DNA from: Candidatus Gastranaerophilales bacterium
GTDB lineage: Bacteria > Cyanobacteriota > Vampirovibrionia > Gastranaerophilales > Gastranaerophilaceae
Reading direction: 5' to 3'
NCBI GenBank assembly: GCA_947589705.1
Contig: CANQCO010000013.1
Coordinates: forward strand, 1 to 32,131
Length of the DNA stretch: 32,131 nt
This document shows, in pieces, positions 3,262 to 26,121 of this stretch (within the stretch, counting starts at the first letter, position 1; each line of letters starts with the position of its first letter). A program made the translations under genes and the position numbers. The notes beneath the pieces were generated by a model. The model ran no database searches. It saw nothing but the letters and a program-made list of their open reading frames with translations, and was not told where the DNA came from.

Positions 3262-3341
<80 letters not shown>

Positions 3342-4835: not shown

Positions 4836-5951
4836 CTATGTTCCAAATCTTCTGGCATTTTCTTGCGGTTCAATGGTTTGGTTTACTATGCTGTTCAACA
4901 AGTTTACACATTTGTCATTAACTTCCGGCAATAAGTGGGTGTATAAATCCATTGTCATAGTTATTGACGAATGTCCAAGCTGGTGTTGAACATACTTCAT
5001 CGGGGCGCCGTTTGCAAGAAGAAGGCTTGCGTATGTATGCCTTAGGTCGTGGAATCTTATTCTATCAATACCGGCCCTGTTTAATGCAGGAAGAAATCTG
5101 CGTTTCATCATATTTTCTGCACTTTGATAATTACCCTCATTGTTTGGAAAAACAAGATTGTTCTCACCTTTAGGGCAAGCCATACGCCATTCTCTTAAAA
5201 CTTTTGCCAATTCATCAGACATATCTATTACCCTTATTTTACCTGTTTTCGGCGTCCCGAGTGTACCGTGAGTGTAGTTTTTATCAATAGTAATCTTTTT
5301 GGTAATCCAATTTATCGAATCCCAAGTGAGTGCAAAAAGTTCACCCTGTCTCATGCCGGTAAATAACGCAGTAAACAAAAGGGGGAAGAAGTCGGGATAA
5401 ACTTGTTTTGTCTTTGATAATAACGCTTGTACTTCTTCTGTACATAATGCACGAATCTTTTTGTTCTTAACTTCTTTTAGAGATTTAATGCGCACAAGAG
5501 GATTTCTTACTGTAATATCGCTATCAATCATAAAATTGTAAATTGCACTTATGAATTTAATGTACTTGTTTACCGTGGCATTTGCTCTACCTACGTCCTG
5601 CATTTGTTTCATAAATTCTTTGATAAGTATCGGGCTGATTTCATTGATATTCAAATCCCCAAAGAATGGGACAATGATGTTATTTAAGTAACCCTCATAA
5701 GTTTTATATGTTGAAGGTTTGCAGTTTGTGCTTGCGTGAAGCCTGAGATATAATTCGCCTGCCTCTTTGACGTTTGTCTTTTTGTTTATGGGGTTTATAC
5801 CTTTATTTAATTCTTCATAATGCTTTACTAATGCTCTTTCAGCTTCATCTCTGGTGTTAAAGCCTTTTTTAATCTTTCTTTTGCCTTTAAGGTCTTTATA
5901 ATCGTATTCCCACTTGTTTGTTTTCTTGTTTTGTCTAACTGCTTTTATCAT
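4836..5951 (-). CDS. Tyrosine-type site-specific integrase
   Basis: Integrase that recombines the element with the tRNA-fMet site. The N-terminal ~50 residues are an arm-binding type domain (GKRKIKKGFNTRDEAERAL), residues 60-155 are a SAM-like core-binding domain, and the catalytic domain carries R201 (TGMRQGEL), K235 (TPKTGK), H301 and R304 (HDLRHTYAS), H327 (LGHSSIT) and the nucleophile Y337 (DLYTH). All six residues are present, so the enzyme is probably active. 371 aa is typical of phage and ICE Tn916/lambda-type integrases. AAGGAG lies 9 nt before the ATG. It is transcribed towards attL, and the excisionase-like gene is just upstream. Confidence 0.96.
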   Translation of the reverse strand: MIKAVRQNKKTNKWEYDYKDLKGKRKIKKGFNTRDEAERALVKHYEELNKGINPINKKTNVKEAGELYLRLHASTNCKPSTYKTYEGYLNNIIVPFFGDLNINEISPILIKEFMKQMQDVGRANATVNKYIKFISAIYNFMIDSDITVRNPLVRIKSLKEVKNKKIRALCTEEVQALLSKTKQVYPDFFPLLFTALFTGMRQGELFALTWDSINWITKKITIDKNYTHGTLGTPKTGKIRVIDMSDELAKVLREWRMACPKGENNLVFPNNEGNYQSAENMMKRRFLPALNRAGIDRIRFHDLRHTYASLLLANGAPMKYVQHQLGHSSITMTMDLYTHLLPEVNDKCVNLLNSIVNQTIEPQENARRFGT

Positions 5952-6428: not shown

Positions 6429-9374
6429 TTAAATTACTTCTCCCGCTCTATCTTGCGAATATTGCGTTTGAGTTTTTTTATCCCTTTGATGTTCTTGCTC
6501 ACTCAGTTCTTCCTGATACTTTTGCAATTCATTAAGGACATAAAGCAGTTTTGCATTGTCTTCCGGTACTTTAATAATTAGTGCTCTTGGAGAATGGCCT
6601 TTTCTAAAGTATTTATTGTTGTATTCAATGTCGGGTTCTTTTGTAGCTTGTGTTCTGATGTCTTTTGCACTCGGTATCGGAACTCCGGTTTCTTCTGATT
6701 GTTTGAATTCTTTGCTAAATAGCGGATGTACACCATCAACATATATTGAAATCTCATTCTTTTTTGGATTAAAAATATATTCGCTGCCGTACTGAATCTT
6801 ATTGCTTCTAGCAAGTATCAAAAATATTGCCATAAATTTTTCAAAACAATCTTCTGTATGTGTAATGTCTTGATATGACTTTATGTAACTTTCAAGACTT
6901 TGGTTTAGTGTTTGTATTTCTTTTCCACCTTTAAAGTCTTTACTGAAATTTGATACCTGATACAAAATATCCATTCCGCACATAGCAATAGCAATGTTAT
7001 TAACACATCTTAAGTCAAGATTCGAGTTGTTTTTTAGTACAATTTTTGTGTTATTATCTAACATTTTCAGAATAGTGTCTTTATCTGGATACCATTTCAG
7101 TATTTTAGGCAGAAGACAAGAAAGGTACTTTTCTCTGATTTGATTAATTTTACTTGCTTCTTCAGGGCTGAAATCCTTTTTATAAAATTCGGTATACATT
7201 AGCCTTGTTGCAGTTTGCGGATTGTGATGAGCCCTATCATTGCTTGCAAAATTCAACGTTGCATTAACTGCACGAACATCCTGTTCTTTGCCATAACCTG
7301 TCATTCTTTTTCTAGAATTTCTGTCATACACGGCTTTTGTAGTAGGCTCAAAGTTTTTGCGCATGTATCCTTCTACTTCGGCATATAAAATAGGAATATT
7401 TTTGTAGTATTCCATATTGTGCAATAGATTCATTGCGGTGTCATTTCCGCTACTTAAAAACCTTGTATTGAATCCAAATAAATAAGCTATAGTAATTAAC
7501 AAATTGCTTTTACCACTTGCTGCTTCACCGTACATGAAGTTTACGGGGAATCCCATTGTTTTACTAAAAATAATATCTACGAATGGACTCATAATAGCAG
7601 TACCCAAAGTTAAAAGCGGCTCAACCTTATTACCGTATGTGCGAATTGTGTTAACAAATACACACTTTGCAACAAGTTCTTCTATTGAGGTTGATGTTGC
7701 AGAAAACTCTTTTATAAGCTCATCATTCTTGTTTTGTTCAACAAATTCTGAATAAGATATTTCAGGAATATAAAGTTCGGGAGCATACATATCCCTATCG
7801 GTTTTTAACGTAAATGAGTTATTGTAATCAAGTTGAATTATGCCTTTTGAATTTGCCATTGGGGTTAATATATTTCCGTTTTTTAAATCAACCGCTGCAT
7901 TTTTATATATCCAAAAAGGATTGTCATTATGAAATATTAAAGAAGGATTTTTGAAAATATTCAGTTCTTCCGGTATATTGCTTAATTCATCAAGCAGAAT
8001 ATTTTTAAGTTCAGTATCTTTTAAGCAATGCAGATGAATCCCGCCTTCTTTTAATACATCGTGCAGATTTTTTAAATCCAATAATTCTTTTTGAGATAAA
8101 ATTATCGGCTTTGTTGTTTTGTTTCCAATATTTGTAACAATTTCCAATTGATATTCCTGATGATTTTCAAAACTATAAGTATTCAGTACAACCGTTTTTG
8201 TTACATTTAAAGTAAAGTTTGATTTCTTCACAAATGTTAATTTACCAGGACCTGCATCTGAATTTGGGTCATATTTTACATAGTAATAACAACCTTTATA
8301 AGGATATATTCCCCTTTCAAAGAACTCCATTATTGCCTTATGTTCTGGTTTTACATCAACTGTAATTGGCATATCAAGCTTAATGTTTGTTCTTCTAAGA
8401 TATAATTTTAAAATAGAATTTGGCGAGAGTTTAATACTATCTTCCACAATATTTTCAGAGATTCCGTGTTCTTGAATATATTTATGTAAATCTGTAAAAT
8501 CATTGATATAACAACGAATTCCATTTAGTTTACCTAGATTGAGGGTATGAAATACTAACGGAATTTCCTGTTCTATTTTTTGTGCAGCCTTTTTCCCAGG
8601 AATATCATTATCCATGCATATTATTATTTTTTCGAATTTACTCAGATATTCAATATGAGGTTTAAGTACTTTTGCAGTATTACCTTCTCCATTAGAATTC
8701 GTCAATATCTGGTAGGAATCTTGTAAGTTAAACTTTTTTAAATAATCATAAGCAGCATAGCCATCCTTATACCCAGCACAGATTAAAGCATTTTTCGGAT
8801 TTTCAGGATTATTTATTTTTGATAAACACTTTTCAGGATTATCCGCATACCCTTTTGTTTTAGTTAAAAATTTAAATTTTCCCTTATTATTCTCAGGAAC
8901 ACGGATTTCGTAACCTGTAATAGTGCCGTCAAGCGCAGTCATTGGTAACATATAAACGTCATTTTCTTTATCATATCCAATAGAACACTCTTTTATAGTT
9001 TCATCAGTTATACCGATATTTTCTTTTACAAGTTTTAATCTATCTTTATTTTTAAGTAAATCAGCATTGTAGTTTTTGAAATTATTTTTATCATACTTAG
9101 CATTATTTACTTTTTGGTATATTTCTTTTTTGACTTTTTGGGAATCAACAATTTCCTGTGCTAATCGTTTTCCGTGCTCATTATCAACACAAGCCCCACA
9201 GAAGAATCCCTTTGTAGGATTGAAATGTAGATTATCACCTTTTGTGTCTCCGCCTTCTGCTCTACAATATCCGCAGGGCCCTTGATATTGATTTGTACCT
9301 GTCTTTTTGAGAGGGTACCCATTGGCCCTCTCAACCTCATCGATTGTAAATTCTCCGTTACTATAGTAATTCAT
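6429..9374 (-). CDS. Primase-helicase: zinc finger, Toprim and DUF927-like ATPase
   Basis: A 981-aa replication protein of the element. A four-cysteine zinc ribbon (C34, C37, C59, C62) resembles the CHC2 finger of DnaG-type primases. A Toprim domain spans about residues 195-275; the DxD motif is clear (ICMDNDIPGKK, near 254), but the first acidic motif is altered (CAGYKDG where EG is expected). The C-terminal half is a DUF927-like helicase with Walker A GEAASGKS at about 616-623, a Walker B-like ILYAEVEGY, and LNFASND as a sensor-type motif. Such fusions initiate replication in phages, plasmids and satellites. GGAG precedes the ATG by 6 nt. It overlaps the upstream gene by 14 bp, so the two are co-transcribed. 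Confidence 0.85.
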   Translation of the reverse strand: MNYYSNGEFTIDEVERANGYPLKKTGTNQYQGPCGYCRAEGGDTKGDNLHFNPTKGFFCGACVDNEHGKRLAQEIVDSQKVKKEIYQKVNNAKYDKNNFKNYNADLLKNKDRLKLVKENIGITDETIKECSIGYDKENDVYMLPMTALDGTITGYEIRVPENNKGKFKFLTKTKGYADNPEKCLSKINNPENPKNALICAGYKDGYAAYDYLKKFNLQDSYQILTNSNGEGNTAKVLKPHIEYLSKFEKIIICMDNDIPGKKAAQKIEQEIPLVFHTLNLGKLNGIRCYINDFTDLHKYIQEHGISENIVEDSIKLSPNSILKLYLRRTNIKLDMPITVDVKPEHKAIMEFFERGIYPYKGCYYYVKYDPNSDAGPGKLTFVKKSNFTLNVTKTVVLNTYSFENHQEYQLEIVTNIGNKTTKPIILSQKELLDLKNLHDVLKEGGIHLHCLKDTELKNILLDELSNIPEELNIFKNPSLIFHNDNPFWIYKNAAVDLKNGNILTPMANSKGIIQLDYNNSFTLKTDRDMYAPELYIPEISYSEFVEQNKNDELIKEFSATSTSIEELVAKCVFVNTIRTYGNKVEPLLTLGTAIMSPFVDIIFSKTMGFPVNFMYGEAASGKSNLLITIAYLFGFNTRFLSSGNDTAMNLLHNMEYYKNIPILYAEVEGYMRKNFEPTTKAVYDRNSRKRMTGYGKEQDVRAVNATLNFASNDRAHHNPQTATRLMYTEFYKKDFSPEEASKINQIREKYLSCLLPKILKWYPDKDTILKMLDNNTKIVLKNNSNLDLRCVNNIAIAMCGMDILYQVSNFSKDFKGGKEIQTLNQSLESYIKSYQDITHTEDCFEKFMAIFLILARSNKIQYGSEYIFNPKKNEISIYVDGVHPLFSKEFKQSEETGVPIPSAKDIRTQATKEPDIEYNNKYFRKGHSPRALIIKVPEDNAKLLYVLNELQKYQEELSEQEHQRDKKTQTQYSQDRAGEVI

Positions 9375-10629: not shown

Positions 10630-10767
10630 CTTTGGTTCATGGTGTCCTCATATTCCTATGTCCGGATTTGGCATATTCTTAGTTTAAACTGCTTATATAA
10701 ATAAAATAACACTAAGAAACGCTAACTTGTTTATGCTATATTGGAGAAAATATCAGGAGTAATTGCA

Positions 10768-12612
10768 ATGATTAATTATGTAAAAGATTTAAAAATATCA
10801 CAAATATTTTCAATTGATGATAAAACAATGTACCAAATCCCAAAGTATCAAAGGAAATATACATGGGGGCAAAATGAATGGAATTTACTCTTTAACGATA
10901 TTATTGAAAATAACGATGGTTATTTCCTTGGATCCTCAATAACAGTAAGTACAAATAATAATTTATTAGGTAATAGAGTTGCTGAAGTTATAGATGGTCA
11001 ACAAAGATTAACAACTTTGTCTATTGCGTTTGCTGCCCTTTACTCTAAAATTGCAGAATTTAAACAAGACTTGAATGAAGATGAACTCAATGATTTAATC
11101 AATATTAAAAAAGCATTAGCGATTAAAAATGAGGATAGTAAATATATCCCAAGGTTAGAATTACAAATACAAGATTATAATAGAAATGATTATAATTCAC
11201 TTTTATTTGAATGTAATATAATTGATTCCAACATAAAAAAGAAACCAAATGCCGGGAATAGAAAAATTTATAAAGCATTTAGATTTTTTGATAAACTAAT
11301 AACCAATTTTTTGAATAATGATGAATTTGAAGATAATAATTTAAAATCAAATAATACAGTTACAACTTTATTTAATTTGGTTAACAGATTTAAGAATGCA
11401 ATTATTGTTTTTATACAGGTCGATTCACATCAAGATGCATACATGCTATTTGAATCACTTAATAATAGGGGTGTCCCATTAACTGCTATAGATTTAATGC
11501 AAAATTTGCTGATATCAATTTCTGACAAGGATAACAAATCTGAAGATTGTTACAATAATTGGATTGAAATAAAAAATAACATAAGTGACGAATATTCAAT
11601 TCAAGAAAGATTTTTTAGGCAATATTACAATGCCTTCAGAGAGGAACTAAATAAACCGTTTATGAATGATAATCAGTCAAAAATGTTTCCTCTTGCATAC
11701 TTAGCAACCAAAACAACATTGATGAATATTTATCAAAAATTAATTGAAAGAGATTACGAGAAATTTATTGAAGATATGATGCAAGCATCAAAAGTTTATG
11801 CTGAATTGATTAATAATACTGATGAGAAGCCCTCTTATGCAAATAATTTGCTTGACTTATCAAGAATTCAAGGGGCGCCATCATATTTGCTATTATTATA
11901 TTTATTTTTAGAAAAAGAAAATTTATCTTGGGAAATATCCTTTGAAGAAGAAATTAAAAAGATTATAGATTTATTAACTTTGTTCTTCGTTAGAAGAAAC
12001 CTTACCGATATACCAAATACTCGTAGTTTAACAACATTATTTATGAACATTATAGATAATATAAAAAATCAAAAAAATCTAAGAATTTATGATGTCATAC
12101 GAAATAAATTGATAGAAGTTTCCGCATCTGATGAAGACTTTTTAAATAAATTACAAGATTCAATATATGACATTAATAAAGACGCTGCAAGATATATATT
12201 ATGTTCATTAGAAACAAAACATCAAACAAAAGAAATTTATACTGATTTGTGGCAAAGAGATGAACATAATAATTATGTATGGACTATTGAACATATATTC
12301 CCAGAAGGTGAAAATATTCCAAAAACATGGGTAGATATGATTGCCGACGGCGACATAAATAAAGCAAATGAATATAGAGACTTATATGTTCACACTGTAG
12401 GCAATTTAACTGTGTCGGGTTACAATTCATCGTTGAGCAATAAATCATTTGGAGATAAGAAGAATCGACAAAAAGATGGGAAATATGTTGGTTATAAAAA
12501 TGGTTTATATTTAAATGAAGATGTTGTAATTCAAGATAAGTGGACTATTGATTTGATTAAACAAAGAACAAAAAAATTATCTAATGAAGCTTTAGAATTA
12601 TTTAAGTTTTAA
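10768..12612 (+). CDS. GmrSD-like DUF262/DUF1524 nuclease (type IV restriction-like)
   Basis: The chosen start is ATG 10768, preceded by AGGAG with an 8-nt gap; the frame could begin at TTG 10741. The N-terminal DUF262 domain has YQIPKYQRKYTWGQNEW and the NTP-binding/hydrolysis motif D76-GQQR (VIDGQQRLTTL). The C-terminal DUF1524 domain is an HNH-type nuclease: TIEHIFPEG with H509, followed by GNLTVSGYNSSLSNKSF and a K-rich DKKNRQ. This is the fused GmrS-GmrD arrangement, 614 aa. Relatives such as GmrSD attack glucosylated phage DNA, and other DUF262 proteins act on other modifications; the target here is not known. The AbiH-like gene follows after 22 bp. Confidence 0.85.
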   Translation: MINYVKDLKISQIFSIDDKTMYQIPKYQRKYTWGQNEWNLLFNDIIENNDGYFLGSSITVSTNNNLLGNRVAEVIDGQQRLTTLSIAFAALYSKIAEFKQDLNEDELNDLINIKKALAIKNEDSKYIPRLELQIQDYNRNDYNSLLFECNIIDSNIKKKPNAGNRKIYKAFRFFDKLITNFLNNDEFEDNNLKSNNTVTTLFNLVNRFKNAIIVFIQVDSHQDAYMLFESLNNRGVPLTAIDLMQNLLISISDKDNKSEDCYNNWIEIKNNISDEYSIQERFFRQYYNAFREELNKPFMNDNQSKMFPLAYLATKTTLMNIYQKLIERDYEKFIEDMMQASKVYAELINNTDEKPSYANNLLDLSRIQGAPSYLLLLYLFLEKENLSWEISFEEEIKKIIDLLTLFFVRRNLTDIPNTRSLTTLFMNIIDNIKNQKNLRIYDVIRNKLIEVSASDEDFLNKLQDSIYDINKDAARYILCSLETKHQTKEIYTDLWQRDEHNNYVWTIEHIFPEGENIPKTWVDMIADGDINKANEYRDLYVHTVGNLTVSGYNSSLSNKSFGDKKNRQKDGKYVGYKNGLYLNEDVVIQDKWTIDLIKQRTKKLSNEALELFKF

Positions 12613-12634: not shown

Positions 12635-13750
12635 ATGAATATTTTAATTATAGGAAATGGATTTGATTTAGCACACGGTTTAAAAACCAAATATAATGAT
12701 TTCTTAGATTATTGTAGAAATCAATATTACAATCGTTGTCTTACTTATATGCCAACAAATGTATTTTTTACAAATATGTGGATTAGGCATTTTATAAATA
12801 TTCATAATTGTAAGGGTGAAAACTGGATTGATTTAGAACAAGAAATTTATAATATTTTAATACATACAACAAATCTTCCTATTATTAAAAACAAAGACTG
12901 TCATCAAATATTTACCATAAATTTTAAAGATGATTCTTTTAATTTTTATAATATCAATCATTATCTAAGCGAACCTTTTGCTAAAGGTTTTCTTGAAACA
13001 GGGTATACTCGTTGTGATGAGCATAATAATATAAATTATCAAATCTACTTTGCTTCATCACGAGGTTTCATTGATTATTTATATGAACAGTTAAGAGAAT
13101 TTACAAAAATATTTCAAGAATATTTAATAAGTGAAGTGTTGTCAAAGTTAGATAATGTACATAAATATCAATTATCACTAAAAGCAATTGGAGTAAATAA
13201 AGGTGATAAAGATGTACATGTATTAAGTTTTAACTATACTGATACGTGCAAAAGATTATACGACCAGAAATTTAATACTTATTGTGATATGAATATTAAA
13301 CCTGTTTATGTTCATGGTGAAGTTAGCACTAATAATGAATGTAATCTTGTATTAGGTACTCGTACAATTGACCACTTTAATGGTTTAATTTCTGCAGATT
13401 TTAATGTCTTTCAAAAACATAACCAAAGACATAAATATGGAACAATAGAACCATACCAAGATTTGTTAAGGAAAATCAAAAAAACTAAATCAACACCAAT
13501 TTTTCACATAATAGGTCATTCTCTTGATAGTTCAGATCATAACATTTTAAAGCATATTCTTCGCGCTAATAATGATTCAATAATTTATATTTACTATTTT
13601 GATGAATCTAATCAAGAAAAATTAATGCATAATATTAATGAAATAATCGGAGAAGAAGAAGTTATGGAAAAAGTCCGATTTATATACCAACACGACGAAA
13701 AACGAGGAATTTTAAGACCACAAAAGGAATCTAATTTAGTTAAAACTTAG
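12635..13750 (+). CDS. AbiH-family abortive infection protein
   Basis: The start MNILIIGNGFDLAHGLKTKY followed by NDFLDYC is the AbiH signature (GNGFDL-x2-GL-x-T-x-Y-x2-F), a nucleotide-binding-like beta-turn. The C-terminal motif HIIGHSLDSSDHNIL is also conserved in the family. The middle contains VLSFNYTDTCKRLY, as in AbiH. 371 aa is the usual length. AbiH was described as a lactococcal abortive-infection protein; its molecular action is not established. It follows the GmrSD-like gene by 22 bp and probably shares its promoter. Confidence 0.85.
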   Translation: MNILIIGNGFDLAHGLKTKYNDFLDYCRNQYYNRCLTYMPTNVFFTNMWIRHFINIHNCKGENWIDLEQEIYNILIHTTNLPIIKNKDCHQIFTINFKDDSFNFYNINHYLSEPFAKGFLETGYTRCDEHNNINYQIYFASSRGFIDYLYEQLREFTKIFQEYLISEVLSKLDNVHKYQLSLKAIGVNKGDKDVHVLSFNYTDTCKRLYDQKFNTYCDMNIKPVYVHGEVSTNNECNLVLGTRTIDHFNGLISADFNVFQKHNQRHKYGTIEPYQDLLRKIKKTKSTPIFHIIGHSLDSSDHNILKHILRANNDSIIYIYYFDESNQEKLMHNINEIIGEEEVMEKVRFIYQHDEKRGILRPQKESNLVKT

Positions 13751-15228: not shown

Positions 15229-18200
15229 ATGGTTTATCAGAATTTAAGTATAGAAAATTTGATTTCGACCAAAATCTTTGATAATAAACCGAGTATTAAA
15301 GAGATAATAAATTTCATTGCCACGACTAATTCCGACTTAATGGATAATGATAGAGAATTTTGCTATTTGTTTGATGCAATTGCACTTAATAATGGTTATA
15401 CCGAACAAACCTTGCCTCCATATTGGAGTATTGGTAGGGAAATATTTAGGTATAAAAAAGAAAATAATTTATCTGCTAAAGAAAAGACAAATCAAATATC
15501 ACTGTCAATAAAATTACTAGATTTAAAAAAATATAATATAAAAATTGCTAATTCAAGTGGTAAGAAAATTTCTACGGCAAGAATTATTGATGCAATTTGG
15601 AACAATTATAATTATGCTTTTGAAAATGACAGGTTGCTTGTAAAAGTATTTGACTGTATTGCAATAAATAATGGGTATAAGTCTGAAGAATTGCCTAAGT
15701 ATTGGAATATTATTAGAGCAGCATTTGATTATAAGAAAGACAAAGAACTGATAAAACAAAATAAAACAGTTAATTATACAATTAATGAATCAAATAAGGG
15801 TATTCCGATTGATTATAGAGTTCTTGAAGTTAGCGTTGATAAACTTGATATTGAACAAAAACTTAAAAATAAATTAACGAGTATAGGTTTAAAATCTATA
15901 AATGACATATTATCTGTTAATTCAGAATTTTACAAAGAAAATCATATTAATGAGTTTAAAAAAGCTGAAATATATGCAACATTGACTAAATATAATATTA
16001 AATCGGATATAAAATATATTCCCTCTGTTATTACACTTCCGGATATTTATTTTAAAAATTTGGATAAAATTTTTGATGCTGAAATAATGCAAATTTTGGA
16101 TAAATATCGTATTAGAAATGTTGGTTTATTAGCTAACAAATTTCCTGACATCCTTATCAACGATGAACAGCTCATGGAGAACCCAAAAGTATTTGAATAC
16201 ATAGATAAAATAACAAATATACTAAACAAATATGGAATTAGTGACTGTCCTATTAATTTATCAGCATTTCAAATAGAAGATTTGAATAAATTAACTACGG
16301 ATGAATTATTAGAAATTAATTATGCAGATAAAATTATAGAATGTATAAACCAAGCATTTTGTGGATTATCAATAAAAGAGCAAGATGTTTTATCGGCTCG
16401 TAATGGTTTGTATAACGAATTTAAAGCCAAATTTAAAAATATTCCTGATGAGATTTTATCGACTATAGATTCTATGTTTTCTGATGACAATATTGAATAT
16501 AAACAAACTCCTGAAAAGAAAAATCTATTTGTTGAAAATAAAAAATACACCCTAGATGAAATCGGTCAAGAATTTGGAGTTACAAGAGAAAGAATTAGAC
16601 AAATAGAAGATAAAGCATTGAAAAATTTCAACAAAGGTTTTCAAGACCTATTCCAGAAATACTATGAAGCTTTATCTCAATTATTTTCAGATAAGCGAAA
16701 ATATTTAATAATTAAAGAATTCGACAAACTTTTAAAATATAAATCTCTAATAGATGTTATATGTAAAACATATGAAAATATACCTTTTTATATTGATTTT
16801 TCTATTGGATTAATCATTAAAGAAGGAATTGTTCTAGAAGATTTATTAGATGATGATTCGGTAGCAACTGATTTAAAAGTTAAAATAGAAAAATTTGTTT
16901 ATAAAGATTTTATCAAAATTAATAACCATAGAATCAAGAATACAAAAAATGATATTTTAATTTACTTTTTAAGAACTCATTGCAGAAAAGGCATAAAATT
17001 CAACGATTTTCAGAATTTATATATGGATTTTCTGATAAGCAATGGATTGAACGATAGAGATGACTTACTTTATTTTGATAATACTCTATACAATAAATTA
17101 TCTGTAATGGATTGCCTATTATTATCTCCAGGAAAGTTTCTCAGATATTATGATGTAGAATTAGCTAAAGATTTAGTAAAAAAACTAGATTTATCAAGTT
17201 ATAAGGATATTGAAATTTCAAGCCGTAAATTATATTTAGAAAATCTGGAATTAATGCAAGAATATGAAATAGAAAATGAATATGAATTGCATAATCTTTT
17301 AAAGAAACATTTGCACAATAATTACATAGATTTTTCTCGTATGCCAATTATAAACTTCGGCACACCAAATCGAGATAAGCAAATGGAAGATTTATTATAT
17401 CAATTATCCCCTATTAAAAGTCGTGATTTTGCTTTGGCATATGAAGATAAATATGGTATAGATACAAAAAACTTTATAGCAAACTATGCAAAATCAATAA
17501 ACAAATATTTAATTAACGGATATTATGTTATTCACACTGAAAATTTAAATAATGAACATTTAGAGATTTTGAAAAATAAATTAACTGAGAACTTTTATTG
17601 GAAAGAAGATTTAGAAAATATTTATATATCCTTGTTTAAGGATGGTAATTTAAAAAATTTAAATGCACAAAATATAAAATTACTAAATTATACAATGGCA
17701 AGTAGTTGTATATATTCTGATAAATTTAATTCTTTAGCTGATTGTGTTGAACATATTATATTAAGCGGTAATACCTTTAATTTGAATATTCAAAACAAAT
17801 TTAGGAGCTTAGCTGCTTTTTATCAAGTATTCTCAAAACTTAGAAATAATATGGATATTATAGAATTCGACAATGGTAATTATATTAATTTTAAAAAATT
17901 AGAATCTGTTGGACTTAATAAAAATGATTTATACGAATATCAAAATAAAGTTATTAATTATATTGAAGATAAATATTTTACAGTTATTTCACTTAAGAAT
18001 GACGGTTTAAAATATGATAAATTAGATAAATTAGGATTTGATGAATATTTTTATTCTTCAATTCTTATAAACAACCCCTCAATTCAATATAGAAAAATTC
18101 AAAATACATATTTGATGAAAAAGGGAGAAGAACAGTTTGAACTAAGTGATTTTCTAATATACATAATGGGAAAACTTAGAAAAATTGATATTTATGATTT

Positions 18201-18342
18201 ATGTGATTATATAAAAACACAATATGGTCTTGATATAAATCGATACAAAATAGTAGCAATCACCAAAGAATGTAGTTTGTATTACAATCAAATTACAGAA
18301 AAAGTATACATAGATTATGATGAATTTTATAATGAAATATAA
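15229..18342 (+). CDS. Large protein with alpha-CTD-like and split sigma-70 region 4 domains
   Basis: First gene of a three-gene operon, 1037 aa. Two N-terminal repeats (about 21-85 and 111-175) share FD-x-IA-x-NNGY, then LP-x-YW-x-I and YKK. Segments at about 195-250 and 277-335 resemble the helix-hairpin-helix of the RNA polymerase alpha C-terminal domain (LKNKLTSIGLKSINDIL). A sigma-70 region 4 follows: region 4.1-like LSIKEQDVLSARNGL (about 379-395), an insertion of about 45 residues, and a canonical region 4.2 helix-turn-helix, TLDEIGQEFGVTRERIRQIE (about 441-460). The remaining ~570 residues are helical and unrecognised. It is presumably a DNA- or RNA-polymerase-binding protein. AGGAG lies 5 nt before the ATG. 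The ParB-like gene follows after 15 bp. Confidence 0.7.
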   Translation: MVYQNLSIENLISTKIFDNKPSIKEIINFIATTNSDLMDNDREFCYLFDAIALNNGYTEQTLPPYWSIGREIFRYKKENNLSAKEKTNQISLSIKLLDLKKYNIKIANSSGKKISTARIIDAIWNNYNYAFENDRLLVKVFDCIAINNGYKSEELPKYWNIIRAAFDYKKDKELIKQNKTVNYTINESNKGIPIDYRVLEVSVDKLDIEQKLKNKLTSIGLKSINDILSVNSEFYKENHINEFKKAEIYATLTKYNIKSDIKYIPSVITLPDIYFKNLDKIFDAEIMQILDKYRIRNVGLLANKFPDILINDEQLMENPKVFEYIDKITNILNKYGISDCPINLSAFQIEDLNKLTTDELLEINYADKIIECINQAFCGLSIKEQDVLSARNGLYNEFKAKFKNIPDEILSTIDSMFSDDNIEYKQTPEKKNLFVENKKYTLDEIGQEFGVTRERIRQIEDKALKNFNKGFQDLFQKYYEALSQLFSDKRKYLIIKEFDKLLKYKSLIDVICKTYENIPFYIDFSIGLIIKEGIVLEDLLDDDSVATDLKVKIEKFVYKDFIKINNHRIKNTKNDILIYFLRTHCRKGIKFNDFQNLYMDFLISNGLNDRDDLLYFDNTLYNKLSVMDCLLLSPGKFLRYYDVELAKDLVKKLDLSSYKDIEISSRKLYLENLELMQEYEIENEYELHNLLKKHLHNNYIDFSRMPIINFGTPNRDKQMEDLLYQLSPIKSRDFALAYEDKYGIDTKNFIANYAKSINKYLINGYYVIHTENLNNEHLEILKNKLTENFYWKEDLENIYISLFKDGNLKNLNAQNIKLLNYTMASSCIYSDKFNSLADCVEHIILSGNTFNLNIQNKFRSLAAFYQVFSKLRNNMDIIEFDNGNYINFKKLESVGLNKNDLYEYQNKVINYIEDKYFTVISLKNDGLKYDKLDKLGFDEYFYSSILINNPSIQYRKIQNTYLMKKGEEQFELSDFLIYIMGKLRKIDIYDLCDYIKTQYGLDINRYKIVAITKECSLYYNQITEKVYIDYDEFYNEI

Positions 18343-18357
18343 TATCGGAGGTATTAA

Positions 18358-19593
18358 ATGATTATTAACGACTTACTAAAAGAAGGTGTTGAAAAGAATT
18401 ATGTTATCAAAACAGATCAGCGTAAAAAATTAACAATTGAAGGACAGCCAATAGTTTATGATGTATATAAAATTGACTTAAATGCATTGTATTACAACGA
18501 TAAAAACGATAGAATTGCAACATGGATTAGTAAATATAAAGCAGAACATAATAATGAGGAATTTAATACCAACGATAGAGAAAATTACAACAACATAATT
18601 CAAGAATTTATAGTTGATAGTAATCAAGGGGCAATTGATAGAACCCAATCCAATATTGATTTAATAGGACAACAAGAACCAGGAGTAGTGTTAAATGACG
18701 GCAGAATAATTGATGGTAATAGGCGCTATACTTGTTTAAGAAGACTTAAAGAACACAATGCAATGGCTAACGGATATTTTGAAGCCATAATATTAAACTA
18801 TGATTTAAAGCATAATGAAAAACAAATAAAAATGCTCGAGTTATCTATTCAGCTAGGAGAAGATACAAAAGTAGATTATAACCCTATTGATAGATTAGTT
18901 GGTATTTATAACGATTTAATCGATAAAAAACTTTTAACAGTAAAAGAGTATGCTGATGCAACAAACGAAAAAACTTCTGAAATTGAAAAGAAGATAGAAT
19001 TAGCAAATTTAATGGTTGATTACTTGGATTATATCAATGCTCCTTTGCAGTTCTATATTGCTCGTGAAAACGATATTGAAGGTCCTTTACATGAAATATT
19101 AAGAGCTTTACATAAATGTAAAACCGAAGAAGAAGCAGATAATGTAAAGCAAATATTATTTCATGAATTGTTAATGCGACCAGAAGGCGATATGACAAGA
19201 TATATAAGGAAAACAGCTGATAATCTTGTATCTTCAAAACATGCTGAAACATTTATAGAAGAAACTTTTGAATGTATTGAAGAAACTCAAAAAGAGTTGC
19301 TTGCCCCTGAAAACCAAAATTTAGATAAAAAAGAATTAATCAACAAGGTTCGAAACAACAGTAATGTTAAAGAAAAAATGCAAAAAAGCAGAACAAAAAT
19401 AATTGAGAAAAATGATAGAGAAAAAATTATAAATGAACCGGTTGAACTTTTAAATAAAAGTATTGATATTGTTGAGCATATAGATACAAATATCTTCAAA
19501 AAATTATCTGATGACCAATTAGACGATGTTAAACAATCTTTATCAAGATTAGAAAATATTGTTAATAACATAAGAGTATCATTAGAGGACTAA
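18358..19593 (+). CDS. ParB-like (ParB/sulfiredoxin fold) protein with C-terminal coiled coil
   Basis: Second gene of the operon, 411 aa. The motif LNDGRIIDGNRRYTCLRRL (about residues 112-130) is the ParB/Srx catalytic-type loop, as in ParB CTPases and DndB/DGQHR-like proteins. After it comes a helical domain with SIQLGEDTKVDYNPIDRL, which resembles the HTH segment following the ParB box. The C-terminal 90 residues are a charged coiled coil. ParB-fold proteins bind or hydrolyse nucleotides and often act as DNA-loaded clamps or sensors; that role here is inferred. CGGAGG precedes the ATG. Its stop lies 1 bp before the next start, so it is translationally coupled to the PLD-SNF2 gene. Confidence 0.75.
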   Translation: MIINDLLKEGVEKNYVIKTDQRKKLTIEGQPIVYDVYKIDLNALYYNDKNDRIATWISKYKAEHNNEEFNTNDRENYNNIIQEFIVDSNQGAIDRTQSNIDLIGQQEPGVVLNDGRIIDGNRRYTCLRRLKEHNAMANGYFEAIILNYDLKHNEKQIKMLELSIQLGEDTKVDYNPIDRLVGIYNDLIDKKLLTVKEYADATNEKTSEIEKKIELANLMVDYLDYINAPLQFYIARENDIEGPLHEILRALHKCKTEEEADNVKQILFHELLMRPEGDMTRYIRKTADNLVSSKHAETFIEETFECIEETQKELLAPENQNLDKKELINKVRNNSNVKEKMQKSRTKIIEKNDREKIINEPVELLNKSIDIVEHIDTNIFKKLSDDQLDDVKQSLSRLENIVNNIRVSLED

Positions 19594-19594
19594 T

Positions 19595-22144
19595 ATGTTT
19601 AAACAAATTCCTCTAAAACCTGTATATTATGCACGAGAAAACAATATACTAAAAGAATTTTATATACCTGTTATGAAAGATTCTATTGTATATGATAGGG
19701 CTAGTGCGTATTTTTCAGCCAAAGCCTTATGTGATTGTGCTGAGGGAATTGAATACGTTGCACTTAATAAAGGACAAATACGTATTATTTTATCAGAAGA
19801 TATAGAGGAAGATGATTTTAAGAAAATCAAACTTGGATATGACTTAAAAGCTAAATTAAATCAAGGATTGATTTCGAAACTTGAGCTAATTGAAAAAACA
19901 GAGGATAATATTAGAATTTATTCTAATCTCGCATATTTAATTGCAGAAGGTCTTGTTGATATAAAAATCGCATTTATGCGAAAGGGTACTTTCCATTACA
20001 AATTCGGAGTATATGTTGATGCTGAAGGGAATGAAATAACCTCATGTGGCTCTGATAATTTAACAGATGCAGCTATACACAGAAATGGTGAATCTTTTGA
20101 TATTACTTGTAGTTGGCTCTGTTCAGAATTTGATTATGGGAAAATTGCAAATAATAAAGAAAAATTTGAAAATTTATGGAATAACAAAGATACAGAAGCG
20201 ATTGTATTAAAAGTAGATGATGTTGTTTTAAAAGAAATTATAAAATATAACAAAGGTAAATTATTTATGGATAATGCTTTTCTTAAAGAGAATTGTTTTA
20301 TATTAGACTATGAAAATGAAAGATTAATTGGTATAAATAAACTTGAACAAAATATAGAGTTTAATGTCTTCAATAAAATACATCTTAGAAGGTTTGTCGA
20401 AAGTTGTGTTGGTAATAAAGTGGCATTCAAAGAAAATTTAACATATGTTGATTTCGAAAAAATTATTAATTTGTTTAAAAATAAACTTCCTAATGTTTCT
20501 TTGTTTACAACGGCTTCTCTTGATGAATATATTACTAGTAAACAGATGTACTTAAATGATAGAAAAGATTTAGGTATTCAAATAAAATTAAAAGATGATT
20601 TATGTAAAAATGAACTAGAAAAATACAGATTAATCCTAGCAAAAACAATGACTCGTCAATTAAGAGAACAACAGTTATGGGATTCTTTTTATATGTGTAA
20701 AATGAAGAAATGCAGCAACTTTTCTGTTCCTGGTTCCGGTAAAACATCTGCTGTACTCGGTGTTTTTGCATTCTTACAAGATTGCGGGAATGTAGATAAA
20801 GTTGTAGTTATCTGCCCTAAAAATGCATTTGAATCTTGGAAAAATGAGTTTAATATATGTTTTAAGGATAAGCAAGAGTTAAAATGTTTTGATGTTCAAA
20901 GTAATATTCCTTCTCAACAAAAGCATTACATTTTGAATTATGATTATAAAAAATACAACTTATTTCTTTTTAACTATGAATCTTTAAATTCTTATAAACA
21001 GGAAATTAAAGGACTTGTTAAAAATGGAACATTGCTTGTTTATGATGAAGTCCACAAAGCAAAAGGAATTAATGGAGAACGTGCTACAAATTCAATAGAA
21101 ATTGCTAGAGATGCAAATTATGTAATAACTATGACAGGGACACCGATTCCTAATTCATACTTAGATATTTATAACAATTTGCATATTTTATATCCGAACG
21201 AATACGATAGTTTCTTTGGTTTCAAGGAACAACTTTTGAAAAATCCAAATGAATCCGAAAGGAATCTGATAAATGACAGAATTAAGCCATTTTATTGCAG
21301 AACTTCAAAGGAACAGTTATGCGTACCTCCAGCAAATCAAGATATATTCTACTTAGAAGATGCAACAAGTAATGAAAATAGAGCTGCTGAAATATTATAT
21401 TCTAAGTATCAAAGAAATAAATTTGCACTAATAATTAGGCTTCTACAGTTAGAATCTTGTCCTGAATTATTATTAGAGAAATTGGATTTTAGCGAATTTA
21501 GAGATATTTTAGATATTTCAATAGAACCTGATGAATTAGATTATTCTGATGCCTCAAGTGAACTTAAGGATATTGTTCAAAACATTGAAACAACTGTAAA
21601 AACGAAAAAATGTATTCAATTGGTACAAAATTTATATAATGCAAATAAACCTGTTATTATTTGGACTTTATTTAGAAAATCAATTTCAAATTTAAGAACA
21701 TTGCTTAATGAGATTGGTATTCCTTCAGAAGAAATTACAGGTGGAACATCAATGGAAGATAGGAAAATAATATTAGATAAATTCTTAAATAATGAAATTA
21801 AAGTATTAATTACTAACCCTCAAACTCTTGCAGAATCGGTGTCTTTACATTCAATATGCCATGATGCTATTTATTATGAGTATAGCTATAACTTGGTTCA
21901 TTTATTGCAATCTAAAGATAGAATTCACCGTTTAGGATTACCGAATAATCAATACACTCAATATTACTATTTGCAAACATTATTTAAAATTAATGATATT
22001 GATTACTCATTAGATGAAATGATATATGACCGTTTAAAATTAAAAGAACATATAATGCTGGAAGCCGTTGATGATGGCAAACTTGAAAGAGTCTTTACAG
22101 AACAAGAAGATATTGATGCTATATTCAAAAAATTAAATATCTAA
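19595..22144 (+). CDS. PLD-domain SNF2-family helicase
   Basis: Third gene of the operon, 849 aa. The N-terminal ~200 residues resemble a phospholipase D-type nuclease domain: FHYKFGVYVD (near 131-140, H-x-K with the Asp one residue later than in the usual HKD) and GSDNLTDAA (near 152). A superfamily 2 helicase of SNF2 type follows: Walker A PGSGKTS (about 377-383), DEVH (about 483-486), TGTPIPNS (near 514), and the helicase C part with ITGGTSMEDR and SKDRIHRLG (motif VI, near 772). Family knowledge suggests DNA translocation coupled to nuclease action. The end overlaps the convergent Sau3AI-like gene by 12 bp. GAGG in the preceding coding end supplies the ribosome site. Confidence 0.85.
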   Translation: MFKQIPLKPVYYARENNILKEFYIPVMKDSIVYDRASAYFSAKALCDCAEGIEYVALNKGQIRIILSEDIEEDDFKKIKLGYDLKAKLNQGLISKLELIEKTEDNIRIYSNLAYLIAEGLVDIKIAFMRKGTFHYKFGVYVDAEGNEITSCGSDNLTDAAIHRNGESFDITCSWLCSEFDYGKIANNKEKFENLWNNKDTEAIVLKVDDVVLKEIIKYNKGKLFMDNAFLKENCFILDYENERLIGINKLEQNIEFNVFNKIHLRRFVESCVGNKVAFKENLTYVDFEKIINLFKNKLPNVSLFTTASLDEYITSKQMYLNDRKDLGIQIKLKDDLCKNELEKYRLILAKTMTRQLREQQLWDSFYMCKMKKCSNFSVPGSGKTSAVLGVFAFLQDCGNVDKVVVICPKNAFESWKNEFNICFKDKQELKCFDVQSNIPSQQKHYILNYDYKKYNLFLFNYESLNSYKQEIKGLVKNGTLLVYDEVHKAKGINGERATNSIEIARDANYVITMTGTPIPNSYLDIYNNLHILYPNEYDSFFGFKEQLLKNPNESERNLINDRIKPFYCRTSKEQLCVPPANQDIFYLEDATSNENRAAEILYSKYQRNKFALIIRLLQLESCPELLLEKLDFSEFRDILDISIEPDELDYSDASSELKDIVQNIETTVKTKKCIQLVQNLYNANKPVIIWTLFRKSISNLRTLLNEIGIPSEEITGGTSMEDRKIILDKFLNNEIKVLITNPQTLAESVSLHSICHDAIYYEYSYNLVHLLQSKDRIHRLGLPNNQYTQYYYLQTLFKINDIDYSLDEMIYDRLKLKEHIMLEAVDDGKLERVFTEQEDIDAIFKKLNI

Positions 22145-23497
22145 AACTTGTTCCAATACATACTTATTATTCAACCAAAAGCATTGTTTTGTTAATTCTC
22201 TGCCATCGGGGAGTTCGTAAGTATCAGCCTTATTTTGCCCGTGTGGTCTTACGTGACTTACTTTGTTAAAAGATTGTCCCGGCAAATTATTAAAATCACG
22301 TCCGTTTTTATTTGTTATTTTAACGCCTTCTTTAATTACATTAACTGTTTCAGCCCATACTTTATGGACTTCTTCAATGTCGGCTACCGGCATGTTCCAA
22401 AATTTCACATTATCTAAGTATAATTCGTTATTTTTATCAAACTTGAATATGATAAACATAAATTTTGTAGAAGAAAACAGGTTATACATAAATGAATCTT
22501 CCCATTCTTCTTTAATAATTTCAGTAAATTTAAAAGTCGGGAAAGACATACTCTCTTTGATTTTCTTGTTTCCATACTCAATTCGTATCGTTTTAGGAAC
22601 TATATTTGCTTTCTTAAATTCTTCTGTCGCTGCAATATTTCCTTTTATACCCAAAATAGAAGCGATAATTCTTTCATTAACATTTTTCATTGCAGGATTT
22701 AATTTGAATTCTCTGATTAATTCCTTCTGAGATTTACCAAAATATGGTTTAATTTTTCCAATAATATAATTTTCAAAACCTTGTTTTTCAAGTTGTTTTT
22801 CGTTATCAATTATTGATTCTTCTTTTTCTTGATTCAAGACATAATTATTCAGAATATATGTCATGTAAGATTGTTTAAGAGAATATGCTCTTTGATTAGC
22901 TTTGATAGTATTAAAAGGTTGTGGTCTTAAATCTTTTTCTCCTCCAGCTCCTTTTCTGCAAGCTCCAAGATATAGGGTATCTCCTTCTGATAATTCATGA
23001 GCTTTACCTTCTCTTATTTTTTTAACAATCTTTTCCCAATCCTGTTTAATAACAATCAAATCTTTTTCAGGATATTCATATAAAAGAGTTTCTAATATTT
23101 TAAAATCAGTAACGGGTACATCTTTGAAATATTCATAGTACATCAATAAAAGTGTTTTGTTCTTATGCCAAAAGCTACTATTTTCAAAAGAATTATTAAC
23201 TTCTGTCATATAATCAATGATGTTTAAAACAAGTCTTTCCTTTGCTACATATTTATTCGACTTATTTTTTATGCACGGGGTAACTTTTAATTCAACGCCT
23301 AATTCATTAAAATCAGCTTCTGCTCGGCTGTTGACTTTTCTTTCAAACCAACATTCTTCAAACATTTGCCCAATGTTACCTTTATTTTTAGCGGTTCCAA
23401 GTCTTCCTGTCGTGTCAATTTGACCAAAAGGAATGTCAATAGCTTCTTTAGACCTTTTTAATAATTCCGCTTTAGAATTGTAACGTTTTTCTTGCAT
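22133..23497 (-). CDS. Sau3AI/MutH-type restriction endonuclease (expected GATC)
   Basis: 454 aa from ATG 23497, which follows GGGGTGG by 5 nt; a GTG at 23506 is the alternative. The N-terminal part carries the MutH/Sau3AI catalytic pattern D62 ... E69-L-K71 within ADFNELGVELKVTP, after the conserved KGNIGQMFEECWF segment. The C-terminal half is expected to be the second, inactive MutH-like domain found in Sau3AI, which is also about 490 aa. Enzymes of this family cut at GATC. The gene is divergent from the methyltransferase, with 51 bp between the two starts, so they share a promoter region. GATC as target is inferred from family and from the rarity of GATC in this window. Confidence 0.85.
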   Translation of the reverse strand: MQEKRYNSKAELLKRSKEAIDIPFGQIDTTGRLGTAKNKGNIGQMFEECWFERKVNSRAEADFNELGVELKVTPCIKNKSNKYVAKERLVLNIIDYMTEVNNSFENSSFWHKNKTLLLMYYEYFKDVPVTDFKILETLLYEYPEKDLIVIKQDWEKIVKKIREGKAHELSEGDTLYLGACRKGAGGEKDLRPQPFNTIKANQRAYSLKQSYMTYILNNYVLNQEKEESIIDNEKQLEKQGFENYIIGKIKPYFGKSQKELIREFKLNPAMKNVNERIIASILGIKGNIAATEEFKKANIVPKTIRIEYGNKKIKESMSFPTFKFTEIIKEEWEDSFMYNLFSSTKFMFIIFKFDKNNELYLDNVKFWNMPVADIEEVHKVWAETVNVIKEGVKITNKNGRDFNNLPGQSFNKVSHVRPHGQNKADTYELPDGRELTKQCFWLNNKYVLEQVLDI

Positions 23498-23548
23498 AGT
23501 TACCACCCCATTAATTTTATGGTAACATAATAATGGAGTAATACAAGA

Positions 23549-24823
23549 ATGTTAAGTCGTGGGAAGAAAATAAGAGTAGTTGAATTATTTGCCGGTGTAG
23601 GAGGTTTCAGGGTAGGCCTTGAAAGAAGCTCTGATTTATTTGAAACAATCTGGGCAAATCAATGGGAACCGGGAAGAAAATCTCAATACGCATATGATTG
23701 CTATGCTAAAAATTTTGGTAAAAATCATAATTGTATAAATGAAGATATAGCATTAGTTAAAGACCAAATACCTGAGCATGACTTACTTGTTGGTGGTTTT
23801 CCATGTCAGGATTACTCTGTTGCAAGAACAGGTGCTAAAGGTATTCAAGGCAAAAAAGGTGCTTTATGGTGGGATATAAGAGATATAGTCGAAGCTAAAA
23901 GGCCTAAATATATACTACTTGAAAACGTAGATCGCTTATTAAAATCTCCTGCAAAACAAAGGGGGAGAGACTTCGGTATTATTCTAAGATGTTTATCTGA
24001 CTTAGGTTATGCAATAGAATGGCGTGTTATAAATGCCGCTGAATATGGTTGTGCACAGAGACGCCGTAGAACATTCATTTTTGCGGTAAATGAATCAACT
24101 GATTTTTATAATCATTTAGCAAATGAAGATAAGTTTAATATCATAACTCAAAATGGCTTCTTTGCCGGAGAATTCTTAGTTGATAAGACAAACTTAAGTA
24201 TAAACAATATTGATATTTACACAATATCAAAAGATAAGTACAAAACATTAGATGTATTCTCTGATAAGTTTGCAGCTAAGTTCTGCAATTCAGGTGTTTG
24301 TGTAAATGGGAAAGCATACACAATGGAAACAACACCAATTATGCAAGCTCCAAAAACATTGAATGAGATATGTGAAAAGGGCCCAGTTGATAAAAGATTT
24401 TTCTTAAATGGTAGTACAGAAAAATGGCAATATTTAAAAGGTGCTAAGCGCGAAGAAAGACGGCGTCCCAATGGCGAAATCTATTACTACACAGAAGGTT
24501 CAATGTCTTTCCCTGATAGAATGGATTTGCCAAGCAGAACAATGCTCACAAGTGAATCTTCTTTAAATAGAAGTACGCACGTTATTATTGATAAATTATC
24601 ACAACATTTAAGATTATTAACTCCAACCGAATGCGAAAGACTTAACGGCTTTAAAGATGGTTGGACAGATACAGGAATGCCTGAAAAGTTTAGATACTTT
24701 GTTATGGGTAATGCTCTTGTCGTTCCTTTGATTGAAAGAATGGGCTCACGAATATTAACAATCGCATCTTCTCAGAGTTTTTATAATATAGAACTTAAAA
24801 AGCAAATGGCTTTATGTTCTTAA
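23549..24823 (+). CDS. C5 cytosine DNA methyltransferase, partner of the Sau3AI-like enzyme
   Basis: All main motifs of m5C methyltransferases are present: I VVELFAGVGGFRVGL, IV GGFPCQDYS with catalytic C86, VI LLENVDRLL, VIII QRRRRTF, and X VMGNALVVPLIERM near the C terminus. Length 424 aa is close to M.Sau3AI. It transfers a methyl group from AdoMet to a cytosine, presumably in GATC, and protects host DNA from the neighbouring endonuclease. The start has GGAG about 10 nt upstream. The target-recognition region lies between motifs VIII and IX, residues 190-330. Confidence 0.93.
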   Translation: MLSRGKKIRVVELFAGVGGFRVGLERSSDLFETIWANQWEPGRKSQYAYDCYAKNFGKNHNCINEDIALVKDQIPEHDLLVGGFPCQDYSVARTGAKGIQGKKGALWWDIRDIVEAKRPKYILLENVDRLLKSPAKQRGRDFGIILRCLSDLGYAIEWRVINAAEYGCAQRRRRTFIFAVNESTDFYNHLANEDKFNIITQNGFFAGEFLVDKTNLSINNIDIYTISKDKYKTLDVFSDKFAAKFCNSGVCVNGKAYTMETTPIMQAPKTLNEICEKGPVDKRFFLNGSTEKWQYLKGAKREERRRPNGEIYYYTEGSMSFPDRMDLPSRTMLTSESSLNRSTHVIIDKLSQHLRLLTPTECERLNGFKDGWTDTGMPEKFRYFVMGNALVVPLIERMGSRILTIASSQSFYNIELKKQMALCS

Positions 24824-26073: not shown

Positions 26074-26121
26074 CTCATAACCCGAAGGTCAGTGGTTCAA
26101 ATCCACTTCCCGCAACCATTT
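26074..26121 (+). repeat. attR: right 48-bp copy of the attachment repeat (3' half of tRNA-fMet)
   Basis: Carries the 3' part of tRNA-fMet from the anticodon loop to CCATTT, with no 5' half upstream (the preceding sequence is GGGCTTTTATAGA). It marks the original chromosomal end of the tRNA gene. Confidence 0.93.

Follow-up and report, generated by a model that had tools for sequence, protein, structure and literature searches.

Five adjacent genes in a 32,131-nucleotide stretch of DNA from a Candidatus Gastranaerophilales bacterium (assembly GCA_947589705.1, contig CANQCO010000013.1, positions 1 to 32,131; the whole stretch is called the window here) appear to form one GATC-directed restriction-modification (R-M) system on a mobile element, a reading to which we assign a probability of about 0.6. 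The genes encode a large protein with a sigma-region-4 helix (g1), a ParB-like protein (g2), a SNF2 motor with a phospholipase D (PLD) domain (g3), a Sau3AI-type endonuclease, and a C5 DNA methyltransferase, and judged by content the set would be a variant of ATP-dependent restriction-modification distinct from Pbe, DISARM, and MZA.

In the mechanism that we propose, the methyltransferase would protect the GATC sites of the host by a predicted m5C modification, thereby marking self, while a reader composed of the Sau3AI-type C-terminal domain together with g1 would recognise incoming DNA by its unmethylated GATC. The ParB-like protein, possibly as a clamp, would bridge the reader to the SNF2 motor or load the motor, which would then move along the DNA so that its PLD domain could cut, besides the direct cut made by an intact Sau3AI, and the whole may act against phages. 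Precedents for such a mechanism are SauUSI and CglI/NgoAVII.

The five genes of the locus

The genes g1 (15229-18342, 1037 amino acids), g2 (18358-19593, 411 amino acids), and g3 (19595-22144, 849 amino acids) follow one another on the forward strand with gaps of 15 and 1 bp. The endonuclease gene (22133-23506, reverse strand, 457 amino acids) overlaps g3 tail to tail by 12 bp, and 42 bp separate its start, as called, from the divergent start of the methyltransferase gene (23549-24823, forward strand, 424 amino acids). The initial annotation had described this operon spacing, overlap, and divergent pair, and all five reading frames lie where it put them.

Its labels for the restriction pair also hold. 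The endonuclease scores 569.7 bits against the NCBIfam model restrict_Sau3AI (NF040973; cut-off 300, E = 5.4e-171) and matches Pfam MutH (6.1e-34), its best PDB match is Sau3AI itself (4pxg, 1.1e-86), and it has the catalytic D...ELK motif in its N-terminal nuclease domain, with the C-terminal recognition/effector domain encoded at about 22139-22795 (reverse strand). The methyltransferase matches DNA_methylase at 6.3e-64 and is probably of the Sau3AI-partner type, predicted to produce GAT-m5C; the enzyme that accompanies a plain Sau3AI in Priestia shows 51% identity to it overall and 38% across the target region. For the methyltransferase that is paired with a Sau3AI homolog in Metamycoplasma hominis, GAT-m5C was inferred as the product with the help of restriction tests (PMC10305163).

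For g3, called a PLD-SNF2 protein beforehand, the motor half is borne out by Pfam (SNF2-related 5.7e-17, Helicase_C 1e-9), and PLDc_2 (3.9e-4) falls under its cut-off. The best PADLOC match of g3 is PbeA, mainly the PbeA N-terminus (residues 2-220, 7.1e-64), which corresponds to an N-terminal HKD-type PLD nuclease domain encoded at about 19595-20254 (forward strand). The motifs HxK...GSxN, PGSGKT, DEVHK, and QSKDRIHR are present; among relatives, all 12 PLD copies keep HxK...GSxN, and in all 27 motors the motor motifs can be recognised despite slight changes. Close relatives (98, 94, and 89% for g3) come from three bins, two of them Gastranaerophilales metagenome bins and the third labelled Bacilli.

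The ParB-like character of g2 was retained by profile comparison and not by Pfam ParB_N. A g2 profile of 23 sequences aligned with four chromosomal ParB proteins at an hhalign probability of 83% (pairwise E 8.7e-6) across the N-domain and the helix-turn-helix (HTH), with the GxRR and E-x-x-x-Q motifs in register, such that DGNRR of g2 (residues 119-123) faces GERR and LELSIQ...NPID faces LLENIQREDLTPIE; three unrelated control profiles gave 0.2-0.5%, and a GmrSD profile gave 4%. Other Pfam models match weakly (ddrB-ParB in 8 of 14 members, best 0.0025; HTH_ParB in 2 of 14, best 1.8e-4). A PDB profile search did not identify g2 as ParB, its best chain being 8ugc_A (FD15, 0.0016, C-terminal part), and PADLOC gave only a weak Csm2 match (0.018).

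Two labels had been attached to g1. The sigma-region-4 helix is present (16540-16623, forward strand; Sigma70_r4 2.5e-9), spanning only the 28 residues 438-465, and the alpha-CTD was rejected, as no such Pfam match appeared at E<=0.1. The C-terminal domain of g1 (about 17542-18315, forward strand) matches a Priestia fusion protein at 2.7e-22 and is elsewhere fused to Sau3AI-type reader domains.

Recurrence of a ParB-SNF2 pair with varied partners

The g2 proteins of the fetched loci, which were gathered for their similarity rather than sampled at random, form 31 clusters at 80% identity, and an SNF2 gene is adjacent in 29 of them; the remaining clusters represent a weak ParB relative (L013/L044, G324) and a broken copy (L043, G517). 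The following breakdown leaves out L013/L044, L043, short duplicate loci, and G535 (E 1.1e-4, a 4026-residue frame). Ten of the 29 clusters have a Sau3AI-type C-terminal domain, three have g1 with a D12 m6A methyltransferase, five have g1 only, two have type III mod-res genes, six have a BanI/DpnII-like protein with a C5 methyltransferase and a NO VEIN protein, and three distant ones have a NO VEIN domain (L065, L066, L068). In 12 of the 29 a g1-family gene immediately precedes ParB-SNF2, or the g1 C-terminal domain is present there in fusion with the reader. Recurrence of the trio of g1, g2, and g3 in other genomes, which the initial annotation had named as support, is thus seen, with the amendment that, on these comparisons, the conserved core is the ParB-SNF2 pair, found beside Sau3AI-, BglII-, BanI/DpnII-like, and type III genes.

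The BglII-family (PF09195) proteins lie directly before ParB, one in L066 (6865-7326, 1.7e-6), which also has an N4/N6 methyltransferase, and one in L082 (4614-5237, 6.5e-15), which is among the ten Sau3AI-type clusters, so that a further restriction family takes this position. L068 has an N4/N6 methyltransferase like that of L066, and the one protein scanned in L065 gave no match. The BanI/DpnII-like label rests on Pfam (5.4e-8, 6.6e-6), the PDB search having returned repeat proteins only. In the type III group (L019-L023, L047-L056) the mod-res genes are followed directly by ParB-SNF2, and the hosts are plasmids of lactic acid bacteria and enterococci together with viral contigs, some copies being broken. 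The prophage-type cassettes (L024, L057, L058, L060, L062-L064, L067) contain a C5 methyltransferase, a BanI/DpnII-like protein, ParB, SNF2, a NO VEIN protein, and sometimes Vsr.

Fusions, operons, and reader-only forms

The initial annotation placed the trio beside the R-M pair. The adjacency is real, and comparison of the loci indicates further that the restriction pair belongs to the system, because reader-g1 fusions occur in 4 of the 29 ParB-SNF2 clusters and because reader, g1, ParB, and motor can share one operon (L036, L038, L078); chance neighbours were rejected since the set recurs and such fusions exist. In L078 a single 1311-residue frame joins a full Sau3AI (45%, 2.5e-114) to g1 (6.7e-38; both by blastp) and is followed by ParB and PLD-SNF2, with the methyltransferase divergent. 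In L036 a single strand carries Sau3AI, g1, ParB, and PLD-SNF2 in succession, and dcm is divergent. The fusion proteins of Priestia (L005, L119) and Exiguobacterium (L118) match the Sau3AI C-terminal half at 2.2e-53, 1.2e-53, and 9e-27 and the g1 C-terminal domain at 3.4e-40, 6e-39, and 1.9e-33, respectively. In the mollicute-like L038, read with genetic code 4, the genes for dcm, a reader-g1 fusion (7.5e-18, 9.5e-8), ParB, and PLD-SNF2 overlap or abut in a compact operon without the Sau3AI nuclease domain. The Priestia, Exiguobacterium, and L038 fusion proteins were absent from the profile training sets. A reading of L038 as a decayed locus, which arises under translation table 11, was rejected as its frames are open under code 4; its fusion has no match among the plasmid records.

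The reader also occurs without its nuclease domain in 5 of the 10 Sau3AI-type clusters (L038, L041, L005, L006/L118, and L007), and a PLD domain is present in all five; Priestia megaterium and Lactiplantibacillus plantarum are among the carriers of such reader-only sets. L007 encodes a 247-residue protein consisting of nothing but the Sau3AI C-terminal half (PDB 2reu, 3.6e-42), and in L041/L042 this half lies just before ParB (7.7e-32 in L041), the methyltransferase there being split over two frames (70 and 328 residues) in both genomes and so perhaps broken. L082, which keeps the nuclease domain, has no PLD. A solitary 218-residue Sau3AI C-terminal domain is encoded on an Enterococcus faecalis plasmid (L117:9019-9675), with no ParB or SNF2 gene annotated within the 18.6 kb around it.

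PLD is present in 12 of 13 GATC-type clusters versus 0 of 16 others (Fisher 2.5e-7, a value that overstates independence because the label switches only a few times on the motor tree). A Sau3AI-type match was found in 20 of 72,556 plasmid records, and these 20 include all seven that match at least 80% of g3 at a single place (Priestia 2, Exiguobacterium 2, Lactiplantibacillus 3); in both Exiguobacterium plasmids g3 and the Sau3AI-type match lie at least 11 kb apart.

The indicated link to GATC methylation

A link of the module to GATC methylation is indicated. A C5 methyltransferase lies within the fetched stretch in all ten clusters with a Sau3AI-type C-terminal domain; the C5 enzymes of seven GATC-type clusters are 43-52% identical to that of the window, and three of the prophage type are 23-28% identical. 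For L079 and L040, two of the three D12 clusters (the third being L080), the best PDB match of the m6A enzyme is DpnM (4.2e-64 and 6e-78), a GATC enzyme, so that some g1 relatives have methyltransferases of DpnM/Dam type instead, and the GATC-type methyltransferases among the relatives of the module come from two unrelated families. In L080 some 7 kb separate ParB from an additional C5/N6 methyltransferase. The presence of Vsr genes close to some members fits an m5C modification.

GATC is scarce in the window (10 observed, 73 expected). Avoidance of the site as a mark of the element was rejected, because the scarcity (window and L122-L141) is common to ten further stretches, on other contigs of this genome (observed/expected 0.16), and to five genus relatives (0.14-0.39), in which g2 has no match, and thus says nothing about the module.

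Comparison with known systems

No description of this gene set was found in the open-licence literature searched, most subscription papers lying outside it, and the trio as a set matches no PADLOC system, as had been proposed. The classical Sau3AI system consists of two genes and is ATP-independent; the endonuclease and probably the methyltransferase are of this family, but here they are combined with g1, ParB, and SNF2-PLD, and the enzyme is cut down to its recognition half in relatives. The nuclease of SauUSI is of the PLD class. SauUSI combines nuclease and helicase-like ATPase in a single protein, whose ATPase and translocation are set off by target recognition, but methylated targets are recognized by a domain of its own, and no ParB is described (PMC7913695). 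CglI/NgoAVII has a methyltransferase, a nuclease, and a separate SF2-type ATPase that site-specific cleavage requires (PMC4267653), and CglI has been called a PLD endonuclease (PMC6459918); these systems differ in having a DEAD-family N-protein and an R-protein and in their site, GCCGC, and the abstract mentions no ParB, Sau3AI-type reader, or g1 (PMC4267653).

PbeA, which through its N-terminus gives g3 its best PADLOC match, is described as a fusion of HKD endoDNase and SF2 helicase whose partners are a CxC ABC ATPase and a DndE cognate (PMC10853773). PbeABCD differs in that it requires phosphorothioation as well as PbeB, PbeC (the CxC ABC ATPase), and PbeD (DndE); a PADLOC scan of 17 window proteins gave no match to PbeB, PbeC, or PbeD/DndE, nor to Dnd or SspABCD phosphorothioation proteins. 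The similarity to MZA lies in MzaA, a large protein with a sigma-region-4 helix, and this helix is the only PADLOC match of g1 (about 30 residues in common; 40.6 bits, with a cut-off of 800); no other MZA component was matched. DISARM matches are limited to the motor (DrmD best at 1.5e-7, DrmA 0.003) and the C5 methyltransferase (DrmMII), and no drmA/drmB/drmC set was found beside the methyltransferase. The R-M systems of the MORC/paraMORC type share a neighborhood of C5 methyltransferase, Vsr, SF2 helicase, and HKD nuclease, but, in the text available, are built on GHKL ATPases, none of which was matched here, and the paper nowhere uses the word ParB (PMC2292703). PMC12839542, PMC5512222, and PMC4260502, in their accessible parts, describe other systems.

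Weighing the single-system reading and its alternatives

Several observations weigh against a single GATC-directed system. Pfam ParB_N (PF02195) has no match in the genome of the window at E<=10, and in the window itself the endonuclease and methyltransferase genes lie outside the operon of the trio. The Exiguobacterium fusion in L118 is 11 kb from ParB-SNF2 and inverted. The tree of 27 motors requires the PLD/GATC label to change four times (bootstrap 3-5; 2 forced), and most of the 191 g3-matching plasmid records have no g2 match, so there are many motors without g2. Five g1-ParB-SNF2 clusters (three on enterococcal plasmids, two mollicute-like) have neither reader nor PLD, and in their fetched stretches no match was found to the C5, D12, and type III methyltransferase profiles, which were the classes scored; in one of them, L009, genes for type I HsdR and S stand immediately upstream. 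These five may have another function or be remnants. Among them, a methyltransferase gene and ParB are some 13 kb apart on the E. casseliflavus plasmid L018, and for L010 (pBE5_2) none is annotated in the approximately 54 of 62.7 kb viewed, the annotation table being incomplete. Finally, 48 of 392 sampled genomes are Sau3AI-positive and g2 is at the locus in just three of these (G388, G601, G664), from which it follows that the trio is an optional elaboration.

It is possible, though unlikely, that the trio is instead a post-restriction accessory, in which Sau3AI cuts or nicks and ParB-SNF2-PLD takes the ends or the stalled enzyme and degrades the DNA, or, in a variant that we weigh jointly with it, that the trio limits restriction accidents in the host. 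The full-length Sau3AI enzymes with intact D...ELK in the window, L036, L078, and L008, and the enzyme of L082 that is full length by profile, are consistent with this, but the nuclease-free clustered readers leave no cut to process, an argument that fails if another enzyme cuts, and L005 does have a second, separate, full Sau3AI pair.

We consider it improbable that the target of the trio is modified or hemimethylated GATC, or that its activity requires the modification in the way that PbeABCD depends on phosphorothioation. The PbeA-type PLD domain points in this direction, as does the archaeal phosphorothioation motif of PbeABCD, GATC (PMC6459918), whereas GAT-m5C blocks cutting by Sau3AI (PMC10305163) and the kind of methyltransferase, m5C or m6A, varies between g1 relatives. 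Still less probable are two independent systems side by side in a defence island, an arrangement that the defence-like genes GmrSD and AbiH in the same element and the absence of the trio from most Sau3AI loci would suit, and against which the reader-g1 fusions and single operons argue. A g1 that regulates transcription of the cassette, with ParB-SNF2 serving element maintenance, would fit the sigma-region-4 helix, the ParB-like g2, and the mobile setting, but is very unlikely given that in L005, L118, and L038 short proteins join the GATC reader to the C-terminal domain of g1 and have no significant match to the helix region, and that the element gave no match to a ParA-type gene.

The mobile element and its distribution

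On the evidence of a tRNA-Met end repeat and an integrase, the module is carried in an integrated element of about 22.8 kb in tRNA-Met (3294-26121). The attL-like repeat (3294-3341, forward strand) includes the 3' part of the tRNA gene (3262-3338, ARAGORN) and recurs as an exact 48-bp attR-like repeat at the right end (26074-26121, forward strand), and the tyrosine integrase gene lies at 4836-5951 (reverse strand; Phage_integrase 9e-30). GmrSD is at 10741-12612, where the protein also matches SspE models (1.6e-23, ranked behind Orf5 and HEC-06), and AbiH is at 12635-13750. A 981-residue protein with a weak Toprim match (6429-9374, reverse strand) adjoins a frame of 131 residues without matches, and a MinD-like gene (1252-2073) lies outside the element.

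The module is rare and patchy. In the phylum of the window g2 was found in 2 of 386 sampled genomes, that of the window itself and a weak one (1.8e-9), and in other samples in 10 of 392 (one doubtful, one broken), 9 of 395 (a sample that overlaps the preceding one), 3 of 43, and 2 of 160. Plasmid records with a match number 191 for g3, 66 for g2 (15 of which were viewed), and 52 for g1. Among viral contigs the g3 of the window alone found nothing as a query and alignments as queries found loci; g2 is absent from 4 of 22 viral loci (L071-L074, the weakest), and no g1 relatives were found in the viral contigs.

A possible general role for ParB-SNF2

More tentatively than for the window locus itself, we suggest that ParB-SNF2 is a general plug-in restriction motor by which a simple type II specificity becomes ATP-dependent, long-range restriction. 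The recognition module could be the nuclease-free Sau3AI half, a BglII-like or BanI/DpnII-like protein, a type III Res, or g1; a dead restriction enzyme would act as a methylation-sensitive reader, and a ParB-type nucleotide-switched clamp would relay its signal to the SNF2 motor. If true, this would show a stand-alone type II enzyme rebuilt into a motor-driven system, would tie ParB-type proteins to the restriction of foreign DNA, and would account for plasmid and prophage genes now annotated as 'hypothetical', 'ParB N-terminal domain', or 'SNF2-related'. The reader-only systems pose the question of whether restriction can be directed by an enzyme without its nuclease domain.

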